Below, one piece after another: positions 8,997-62,109 of a stretch of 64,000 nt of DNA. Every line of letters starts with the position of its first letter. The first letter of the stretch is position 1. The stretch is from Turneriella parva DSM 21527 (GTDB lineage Bacteria; Spirochaetota; Leptospiria; Turneriellales; Turneriellaceae), in contig NC_018020.1 of the NCBI RefSeq assembly GCF_000266885.1, forward strand, positions 1,984,001 to 2,048,000, given 5' to 3'. The notes beneath the pieces were generated by a model, which saw nothing but the letters and a program-made list of their open reading frames with translations, had not been told where the DNA came from and did not search any database. Both the position numbers and the translations under genes were made by a program.

Positions 8997-9767
8997 TTAA
9001 CGAGAGGTGCGGGCAATCATATATTGAATCGCCAGCTCGAGCGCACGACCCCGATGGCTCACCATGAGTTTAGTGTCTTCGGGCACTTCACCCCAGGTGC
9101 GCGTCTCACCTTCGGGAACAAAAATGGGGTCATAACCAAAACCCAATTCGCCCCGCCGCGACGCGGCAACAAGACCCCTGTGCCTGCCAAAAAAATAAAT
9201 AGGATTGCTTTCGTCTTGCATTACGACCGCACAGGCGACAAACTGCGCCGCCCGTTTTGCGCCAGGTATCGCCGCAAGCGATGTCAGAATTTTCTCACAC
9301 CGCTCTTTATCTGTCAGCGCGTAGCGCGCCGAATAGACGCCGGGTGCATTGCCCAGCGCAGCAACCTCGAATCCCGAATCTTCGGCCAGTACCCATGGAC
9401 GGGTTAGGGCCGACGCCGCCACGGATGGCGCCTTCGCGGCGGCCAAGACCCACGGACGGGTTAGGGCCGACGCCGCCACGCCTGCCCTGAGCGCCGTCGA
9501 AGGGGATGGCGCCTTCGCGGCGGCCAAGACCCACGGACGGGTCAGGGCCGACCCTGCATTACCCTGTACCAATCGCGCGAGGGCTTTGGCCTTAATGAGA
9601 GCATTTTCGGTATAGGTGCTGCCCGTCTCATCGGCTTTGTAGCTGCTGCGAATTTCTGCAGGCAAATCGGCGACGCACTTGAGTTGCACCCCCGGCATTC
9701 TGATGTCGAAAATCCGCTTCATCTCGTGAACCTTGCCGGGGTTTTCGGTTGCAAGGTAGACGATCAT
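8997..9767 (-). CDS. rdgB: XTP/dITP pyrophosphatase with in-frame repeat expansion
   Basis: 256 residues against about 195-205 for the family. It removes non-canonical purine triphosphates (ITP, XTP) from the nucleotide pool. Family motifs are intact: ATENPGKVHEMK at the N-terminus, AEDSGFEVAALGNAPGVYSARYA, GFGYDPIFVPEG, and SHRGRALE at the end. The extra length is a block just before AEDSG, in which SALTRPWVLA appears three times through a 57-bp (19-codon) tandem unit, plus a 24-bp hairpin element between copies. The ATG overlaps the stop of the upstream gene. Whether the enlarged loop is tolerated or affects activity is unknown. Confidence 0.93.
   Translation of the reverse strand: MIVYLATENPGKVHEMKRIFDIRMPGVQLKCVADLPAEIRSSYKADETGSTYTENALIKAKALARLVQGNAGSALTRPWVLAAAKAPSPSTALRAGVAASALTRPWVLAAAKAPSVAASALTRPWVLAEDSGFEVAALGNAPGVYSARYALTDKERCEKILTSLAAIPGAKRAAQFVACAVVMQDESNPIYFFGRHRGLVAASRRGELGFGYDPIFVPEGETRTWGEVPEDTKLMVSHRGRALELAIQYMIARTSR
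9384..9552. repeat. 57-bp tandem repeat inside rdgB with nested 24-bp element
   Basis: Copies start at 9384, 9441 and 9522 (third partial). The first spacing is 57 bp, the second 81 bp because of a 24-bp insert (about 9481-9504) whose minus-strand core is CCCT-TCGACGGCGCTC-AGGG. Each full unit encodes the 19 residues SALTRPWVLAAAKAPSVAA on the minus strand. Lengths are multiples of 3, so the rdgB frame is kept. Confidence 0.85.
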
Positions 9768-42865: not shown

Positions 42866-43198
42866 ATGAAAAAACTGTTCACAATTCTGTCGCTCGTCAT
42901 CGCTGCGACATTCGTAGCGCCCGTAATGGCACAAGAAGCATCTACTGCACCAGCGGCAGCAGAAACAAAAGAAAGCAAAGCGGCAGCTAAAAAAGCAGCG
43001 GCAGAAGAAAAGAAAGCCAAAGCGAAAGCAGCACGCGAAGAAAAAGCAGCGAAAGCTAAAGCAGCGAAAGAAGAAAAGGCAGCTAAAGCAAAGGCAGCCA
43101 AAGAAGCTAAGGCAGCAGCCAAAGCAGAAAAAGCAGCTAAAGCGAAAGCTGAAAAAGAAGCAAAAGCAGCAGAAAAAGCCGCTAAAGCTGGCAAATAA
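42866..43198 (+). CDS. Exported Lys/Ala-rich 11-residue repeat protein
   Basis: 110 residues. A clear signal peptide (MKKLFTILSLVIAATFVAPVMAQ) is followed by about 88 residues of Ala, Lys and Glu in 11-residue periods such as AKAKAAKEEKA. That period and composition are typical of LEA group-3-like or apolipoprotein-type amphipathic helices. GGAGA ribosome-binding site and a strong Rho-independent terminator 15 bp downstream suggest high expression. Role (periplasmic chaperone, stress or envelope linker) is inferred only. Confidence 0.85.
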   Translation: MKKLFTILSLVIAATFVAPVMAQEASTAPAAAETKESKAAAKKAAAEEKKAKAKAAREEKAAKAKAAKEEKAAKAKAAKEAKAAAKAEKAAKAKAEKEAKAAEKAAKAGK

Positions 43199-50769: not shown

Positions 50770-51834
50770 GTGGGCAAGTTGGTGGCTTTTTTCGTTATTT
50801 TGGGCGCTCTCTGGGCCCGCGACGTGCGTGTCGTGGCGAGAGTCGAACGTGTCGACCCGGTCACGCGTCTCGCCGAAATTACGAGCGCAGAGACGATTCC
50901 CGCAGCGGCTGAATACCAGGTGCTGAACGAAACCGGGGAAACTATCGGCAGGGCCGTCGATCTGAAATCGAATGGCGCGCAGGCCTATTCATTCCGTTTT
51001 GAGGGGCGCCGCCGCAGTCTCAGCGCCGGTAGGCGCATCGTCGTTGTGCAGACGAACGAGGCGTTCAGCGCGCTTGCCGACCGACCGCGCATGACACGCG
51101 AGGTGACGACACGGCTCGTTAACCGAGACAATGCGCCGATGCAGCTGATACCCGATGGCATCGTGGTTATGGGCAATCAGCAGGCCGGCGAGCTGCATTA
51201 CGTACCCGCCCGGTCTGGTGGCCGCGCCGCGAACCGTTTTGATATTCCCGCGTTCTACATCGACAGACACGAGGTCACGATCGGCCAGTTTACGCGCTAT
51301 CTCGAAGAAACCCGGGGCAAGGTGCCGACCGCTTATCAGAGCCTCAGCCTAAACCAGCCGGTGACGCGCGTGACCTATAAGGATGCAGAAAATTACTGCG
51401 CATGGGCGGGTAAAAGGCTACCGACCGAATTCGAATGGGAGCGTGCCGCCCGTGGCAACCAGATCGTCAGCTCTCAGGCAGAAACTTATGTCGAATCGAC
51501 TTCGTTTCCCAAGGGGGATTTCTCACCGCAAGAAGCCTGCGTCACCCGGGAAAAGGCATCGGGGCCATTAGATATCGACAAACTTACCGATACCAACGCC
51601 TTTGGGCTCGTCGGCATGTGTGGTAACGCCGCAGAATGGACCAGCAGCTGGCTGCTGCCCTATCGCGGCAACACCGAACGCGATATTCGCTTCGGCAAAA
51701 AGTATAAGGTGATTCGCGGCGGCTCTTTTGAGCTCGAACTCGAATATGCCAAGAGCCATGTACGCCTCGCCGGCGGCATGCCCTCACTCGCACGCGACCG
51801 CCGTGCGGGTTTCAGATGCGCTCGAAGTGAGTAA
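50770..51834 (+). CDS. Catalytically incomplete FGE-sulfatase-domain protein
   Basis: 354 residues. N-terminal helix (KLVAFFVILGALWARD, possible signal anchor), a beta-rich region to about 130, then an FGE-sulfatase/SUMF1 fold at about 140-350: FYIDRHEVTIGQFTRYL, RLPTEFEWERAARG, and GLVGMCGNAAEWTSSW, ending GGSFEL...GFRCAR. The pair of catalytic Cys in the SxRCxxC-like C-terminal segment is absent (KSHVRLAGGMPSLA takes its place), so formylglycine formation is unlikely. It may be a ligand-binding paralogue, as in many bacteria. Confidence 0.82.
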   Translation: MGKLVAFFVILGALWARDVRVVARVERVDPVTRLAEITSAETIPAAAEYQVLNETGETIGRAVDLKSNGAQAYSFRFEGRRRSLSAGRRIVVVQTNEAFSALADRPRMTREVTTRLVNRDNAPMQLIPDGIVVMGNQQAGELHYVPARSGGRAANRFDIPAFYIDRHEVTIGQFTRYLEETRGKVPTAYQSLSLNQPVTRVTYKDAENYCAWAGKRLPTEFEWERAARGNQIVSSQAETYVESTSFPKGDFSPQEACVTREKASGPLDIDKLTDTNAFGLVGMCGNAAEWTSSWLLPYRGNTERDIRFGKKYKVIRGGSFELELEYAKSHVRLAGGMPSLARDRRAGFRCARSE

Positions 51835-51935
51835 ACAGTTCGCCCGCCGGCTAACAGCCGTGCGGGTTTCAGATGCGCCCGAAGTGAGTAAACGGTTTGC
51901 CCGACGGCTAACAGCCGTGCCGGCTTCAGGTGCGC
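51800..51935. repeat. 57-bp tandem repeat at the FGE-like gene end
   Basis: Copies start at 51800, 51857 and 51914 (third partial); the unit is 57 bp. The first copy holds the last codons and TGA of the FGE-like gene, so the duplications lie just past it. The sequence is different from the 57-bp rdgB repeat. It fills the gap to the M16 stop (51951). Confidence 0.8.
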
Positions 51936-62023: not shown

Positions 62024-62109
62024 GTCATGGTTCGACATGCTCACCATGACAAAATTATTTTTTTACTCTGAGCCAATTATTTGTCACCCTGAGCTTGTCG
62101 AAGGGTGAC
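62024..62109. repeat. Two more hairpin elements of the covarying-stem family
   Basis: 62024-62050: stem GTCATGGT/ACCATGAC, loop TCGACATGCTC. 62083-62109, minus strand: stem GTCACCCT/AGGGTGAC, loop TCGACAAGCTC. Together they fill the 93-bp gap between the convergent cytochrome and mltG genes. Confidence 0.75.

Follow-up and report, generated by a model that had tools for sequence, protein, structure and literature searches.

The window analyzed here, a 64,000-nt stretch of the genome of Turneriella parva DSM 21527, a free-living leptospiral spirochaete (PMC3746428), contains an rdgB gene whose coding sequence carries an insertion (Table 1). The product scores 163 bits against the Pfam profile Ham1p_like (PF01725; cut-off 22.5) and 152.8 bits against TIGR00042 in NCBIfam (above the cut-off of 145.35), and RdgB structures in the PDB also match this open reading frame. 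On alignment, it retains every residue that is invariant across 28 RdgB sequences, including the catalytic residues, and displays the family motifs ENAxxKA, DSG, FGYDP, and SHR. The AlphaFold model (mean pLDDT 85.5) has a core above 90 and falls below 50 only at residues 74–117, which form an unstructured excursion joining a helix (residues 52–72) to a strand (residues 125–135), while a Foldseek search matched the model to the E. coli RdgB–ITP structure 2q16 (TM-score 0.90 of the target). The protein shares the fold, motifs, and catalytic residues of RdgB/Ham1 pyrophosphatases, from which it is set apart by a largely disordered loop of 55 residues that precedes the AEDSG strand. An earlier sequence-only reading of this DNA had predicted an in-frame insertion giving a 256-a.a RdgB with an extra surface or active-site loop and had proposed modeling that loop; the confident core, the disordered residues, and the Foldseek match support such an insertion, with the loop beside the active-site strand. 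The simplest inference would be a functional enzyme that carries a tolerated loop.

The decapeptide SALTRPWVLA occurs three times in the protein, immediately N-terminal of the catalytic AEDSG, and both the open reading frame and the DNA copies confirm the initial claim of a triple repeat with all lengths being multiples of three. In the DNA, the starts of the in-register copies are separated by 57 and 81 nt, the larger spacing resulting from the same 57 nt plus a 24-nt repeat located within the loop of one of the hairpins described below. The inner two copies share 94% identity over 54 nt, whereas the outermost copy reaches only 69% because it extends into rdgB sequence. The span first proposed for the repeat (9384–9552) is close to that delimited by comparison with an empty congener allele. 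Read in the gene direction, the insertion consists of a simple hairpin (H2), a bulged hairpin (H1) with the nested 24-nt repeat, a second H2, an intact H1, and a third H2. The intact H1 comprises an outer stem (GGCCG.CGC/GCG.CGGCC), a GAAGG bulge, an inner stem (CGCC/GGCG), and an ATCCGT loop, and the interrupted copy has 26 loop residues where our covariance model of H1 (R1) has two. These two copies are the only R1 matches within the window. As a single strand, the window copy has an unexceptional folding energy (z −1.2 to −1.9), owing to its high GC content, and our structural claim for H1 consequently rests on comparative covariation.

Table 1. Features of the rdgB locus in the window.
Feature	Position (nt)	Strand	Basis
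rdgB (non-canonical purine NTP pyrophosphatase, Ham1 family), with insertion	8997..9767	-	256 a.a; profile, PDB, AlphaFold, and Foldseek matches
H2 simple hairpin ACCC-GTCCAT-GGGT, adjoins AEDSG codons	9391..9404	-	sequence; hairpin downstream of H1
Insertion, 165 nt (55 codons) relative to the empty G003 allele	9393..9557 (approximate)	-	DNA and protein comparison with L050/L021
H1 bulged hairpin, intact copy	9407..9445	-	covariance model R1, 48.7 bits, E 2.7e-9 (window); fold
H2 simple hairpin ACCC-GTCCGT-GGGT, middle copy	9448..9461	-	sequence; repeats
H1 bulged hairpin, second copy, loop interrupted by 24-nt repeat	9464..9526	-	R1, 33.8 bits, E 1.1e-5
Nested 24-nt repeat CCTTCGACGGCGCTCAGGGCAGGC in H1 loop	9480..9503	-	other genome copies; same position in other H1 loops
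H2 simple hairpin ACCC-GTCCGT-GGGT, first copy in gene direction	9529..9542	-	sequence; repeats

We compared rdgB alleles across seven genomes of the genus, the congeners being fragmented assemblies, and one genome of a neighboring genus (G007). The closest congener (G003; locus L050 on a Spirochaetota MAG contig) reads LARLVKG-TVLSEDSG with no insertion, placing the window protein 55 residues longer, and the insertion is also absent from G004, G002, and the neighboring-genus genome. Two congeners have the element at the very same point, which counters the notion that the insertion is peculiar to the rdgB of the window: G005 carries a single unit (ADAKTASVPATALIHPWIL, 19 residues) and G006 carries approximately one and a half units. 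The site is thus filled in three of the seven genus genomes, with similar loop peptides in the filled alleles (ALTRPWVLA, ALIHPWILA, and SFIHPWILA).

A BLAST search of the T. parva genome with the whole rdgB repeat returned only the query itself and short, weak matches, the matches elsewhere being confined to the CCTGAGCnnnGTCGAAGG motif. The private repeat that this search suggested was overturned once congener copies served as queries, as the G005 and G006 repeats gave many short matches across the genus genomes, including several arrays with a spacing of 55–60 nt. Read side by side, the copies resolve into a unit of ~57 nt formed by H1, a few bases, and H2. In H1, 6–9 pairs form the outer stem and ~4 pairs the inner one, the two being separated on the 5′ side by a 5-nt, usually AAAGA-like bulge, and the hairpin closes in an ATCCRT loop. 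H2 has 3–6 pairs and the loop NTCCRT or a shorter variant. The stem sequences vary among loci with their complementarity kept. Across 21 H1 copies, some of them chosen by a hairpin scan, 60 cells over 13 pairs were changed on both sides, compared to 19.0 ± 3.4 after shuffling, and the covariation score was 0.569, compared to 0.156 (none of 500 shuffles reached it). Given the hairpin scan had picked some of these members, we reran the test on 12 distinct copies fetched by BLAST with the core sequence only; outer-stem pairing was 84/108, against 54 ± 5 with the arms shuffled among copies (0/10000). The element contains few stop codons. We did note that arrays often open with a half unit composed of the 3′ arm of H1 followed by H2 (L206, L122, L193, L199, L065, and 9527–9557 in the window). 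In an intergenic copy in G002 (L059, contig C393, ~440–580), the gene-strand sequence of the H2 loop is AAGGAGG, with an ATG following a few bases later, so this element may supply a ribosome-binding site.

Units with this bulged-hairpin architecture, built on other stems, lie at ~30 loci of the T. parva genome, in which R1 gives 55 matches at E ≤ 1. At E ≤ 0.01, each of the seven genus genomes has 10 to 43 matches, and beyond the genus, only two of 54 relatives have any, namely G009 of the same family (one match) and G054 (six weak matches). Across 393 genomes sampled from the whole phylum, R1 matched all seven genus genomes and one of the 386 others, again G054. This spirochaete of another family contains at least three similar bulged hairpins (L150, L158, and L165) with the loop ATCCRT and the stem CCCCTCGC/GCGAGGGG; the hairpins are followed by ACATCGTGT, and their stems are identical from copy to copy. 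The element had no match in Rfam, and our search of one literature library, including the type-strain genome paper (PMC3746428), found no description of repeats in Turneriella; the family appears to be undescribed so far.

The 24-nt repeat nested in the second H1 copy has a distribution of its own. Its CCTGAGCnnnGTCGAAGG motif has nine exact-pattern copies in the T. parva genome, and three further H1 loops carry such a repeat at the same position (at 454.6 kb in T. parva, in mutS of G002, and in one H1 of G004). With the window copy included, repeats of the CCTTCGACnnnGCTCAGG type were seen in H1 loops at four loci in three genomes (the window, L120 at ~1630, L190 at ~1575, and L191 at ~325), always after NTC(C), and at L017, the loop of a different hairpin holds a similar repeat. 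While few, these cases suggest that the nested repeat targets or prefers hairpin loops, and it looks closer to the widespread REP-type repeats than H1 does.

Gene contexts, read from the stretches around loci of interest, revealed conserved genes that are interrupted or extended by the element, with Pfam domains flanking or surrounding the inserts. The view that the insertion is peculiar to rdgB is not supported, given the same structural element occupies dozens of other places, housekeeping genes included. In T. parva, the hosts include glgA, selO, an FMN oxidoreductase, an adenylate/guanylate cyclase, an alpha-amylase, an Lhr-type helicase (with four copies at a spacing of 57 nt), an rlpA-like gene, and a CrtI-like oxidoreductase. 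Those in congeners include pheS, ileS, mutS, ndh, a phosphomannomutase, a pseudouridine synthase, a nitronate monooxygenase, and tgt, in which the element occurs in two species within the same region. Copies near the N-termini of purC, hemW, and ispF may be untranslated. Elements within genes occur in both orientations, and compared to insert-free congeners, the net insert in glgA and selO is exactly 19 codons, as in G005 rdgB. The offset of the direct repeats was a multiple of three at 14 of 14 coding places and at 5 of 23 non-coding places (Fisher p = 2e-6), or at 12 of 12 coding places when a single site per gene was counted (p = 7e-6), these p-values being indicative since sites were sorted by hand into coding and non-coding, the length for glgA was taken from the alignment with congeners, and only 6–9 matching bases underlie some of the offsets.

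Taken together, the rdgB repeat very probably represents two units of a genus-specific, hairpin-forming interspersed element that inserted in frame and then grew in tandem, leaving a tolerated loop. The 57-nt period first noted is real, but it is the unit of a dispersed, genus-wide element and not a simple duplication of rdgB. The element would have entered rdgB at a point flanked by the helix and the strand leading to AEDSG, with the frame kept. Given the element has few stop codons, a net length that is a multiple of three would give a flexible loop of ~19 residues with function kept; selection would purge out-of-frame copies from genes, and other lengths would survive outside genes only. 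Copies may spread via a folded, single-stranded hairpin intermediate, probably with a transposase acting in trans, and the arrays may lengthen by replication slippage at the hairpins. We infer the movement of copies, the slippage, and the tolerance of the loop from the comparisons above. A linked transposase was not found, with no H1 in the 1.5-kb flanks of the three Y1_Tnp genes of the T. parva genome. Direct repeats of 6–9 nt, spaced 57–60 nt apart, flank several of the single-copy sites, though only some of them, which is compatible with target-site duplication but is not proof of it.

The strong divergence of stems among copies is odd for recently moved DNA. A more speculative proposal, which we hold tentatively and consider a minor possibility, is that this is a mobile element recognized by its shape, with only the loops, the bulge, and a few stem pairs fixed, the stems remade when a copy is made (e.g., by hairpin-templated synthesis), and a second element specialized for insertion into the hairpin loops. 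If true, a shape-recognized element would have colonized the housekeeping genes of a free-living spirochaete genus.

The preservation of structure through many compensatory changes could also be expected of hairpins kept as RNA or DNA signals, be it for processing, attenuation, ribosome binding, replication, or recombination, with the protein loop as a by-product, and in at least one intergenic H2 (that at L059), AAGGAGG is shortly followed by an ATG. Positional stability would, however, be expected of a conserved regulatory site, whereas the positions of the element differ across the genus (the rdgB site being a case in point), both orientations occur in genes, and the host genes are functionally unrelated, all of which makes this explanation unlikely. 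We consider it quite unlikely that polymerase slippage privately duplicated part of rdgB with no interspersed element involved. The tandem, nearly identical units at rdgB and the outcome of the genome search with the whole repeat would fit such an event, but the closest congener lacks even one unit, and the dispersed units of the same architecture in T. parva and in all genus genomes refute it as a full account. Slippage is nonetheless the likely cause of the growth in copy number at rdgB.

That the loop is an adaptive change of RdgB, altering its substrate range, oligomerization, or partner binding, has a slim prospect. The loop does adjoin the active-site strand, and it recurs in the genus at the same place with similar peptides; however, its modeled residues fall in the low-pLDDT range, the closest relative manages without it, and the peptides are set by the H2/H1 DNA consensus, with similar ones found in unrelated proteins. 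Finally, although short reads can miscount 57-nt tandem repeats, a sequencing or assembly artefact, about which the sequence-only reading had cautioned, is very unlikely indeed, given two other species, assembled independently, carry the element at the same site, the type-strain genome was taken to finished quality with 1,675x Illumina and 47x 454 coverage (PMC3746428), and none of the lengths breaks the frame.

Most known cases of in-frame, protein-coding palindromes come from Rickettsia, with a few other lineages adding to them. The Rickettsia palindromic elements (RPEs; Ogata et al. 2000/2002, as cited in PMC2996958 and PMC10969869), ~150 nt long as first reported, are likewise small palindromes dispersed through a single genus, and many unrelated housekeeping genes carry them in frame and gain flexible peptides from them. 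The H1–H2 element differs in its ~57-nt unit, its two distinct hairpins, its variable and covarying stems, its often tandem arrangement, and its free-living spirochaete host. Among described phenomena, RPEs come nearest, and in a wider sense so do the intragenic REPs that lie in frame in several genomes (PMC3733652, PMC10969869, PMC2996958). The best reading, by analogy, would be an element that is RPE-like in behavior; we do not claim membership in a described RPE or REP family, and it is by description that we set it apart from RPEs. Intragenic GTAG and CGTC REP sequences, which are palindromes of 20–40 nt found in frame in genes including those for tRNA synthetases and DNA repair (Di Nocera et al. 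2013, PMC3733652), resemble H1–H2 in their placement within coding genes and in their grouped copies, but H1 differs by its 5-nt asymmetric bulge, its constant ATCCRT loop, and its regular H2 partner. By inspection, neither of the tags by which the two large REP classes are defined, GTAG and CGTC, lies beside H1 or H2, the listed copies beginning with GGTY/AGTC within the stem, nor was the association with a RAYT-type Y1 transposase, as in the GTAG class, seen at the three Y1_Tnp genes. Wolbachia palindromic elements and the protein-coding palindromes of Methanocaldococcus jannaschii, as cited in PMC2996958, are also palindromic insertions in protein-coding sequence from other lineages, and we liken them to H1–H2 by description. 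Bacterial MITEs share with H1–H2 a short, non-autonomous nature and possibly short target duplications, but for H1–H2, we identified no resident transposon with matching terminal inverted repeats.

H1–H2 forms a family of its own, hosted by a genus of free-living spirochaetes. With its single- and multi-copy states, empty congener sites, and host genes such as pheS, ileS, mutS, rdgB, and glgA, it offers a comparative set for how selfish DNA survives in essential genes and becomes new protein segments, and its covarying stems prompt one to ask by what means elements of this kind are copied. In annotation, the family accounts for the odd low-complexity inserts seen in many Turneriella proteins.

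Other repeats were noted in the window. A 57-nt tandem duplication at 51800–51935 (2.4 copies, 91%), located at and beyond the 3′ end of an open reading frame (50770–51834) that we take, by sequence impression only, to be formylglycine-generating-enzyme-like, was considered as a member of the same family and rejected, as R1 gives no match there. Low-complexity tandem repeats with the consensus AAAGCAGC and similar units occur at 42979–43188, and a REP-like repeat of the TTTTGTCACCCTGAGCC type is present as a tandem copy at 62053–62094.
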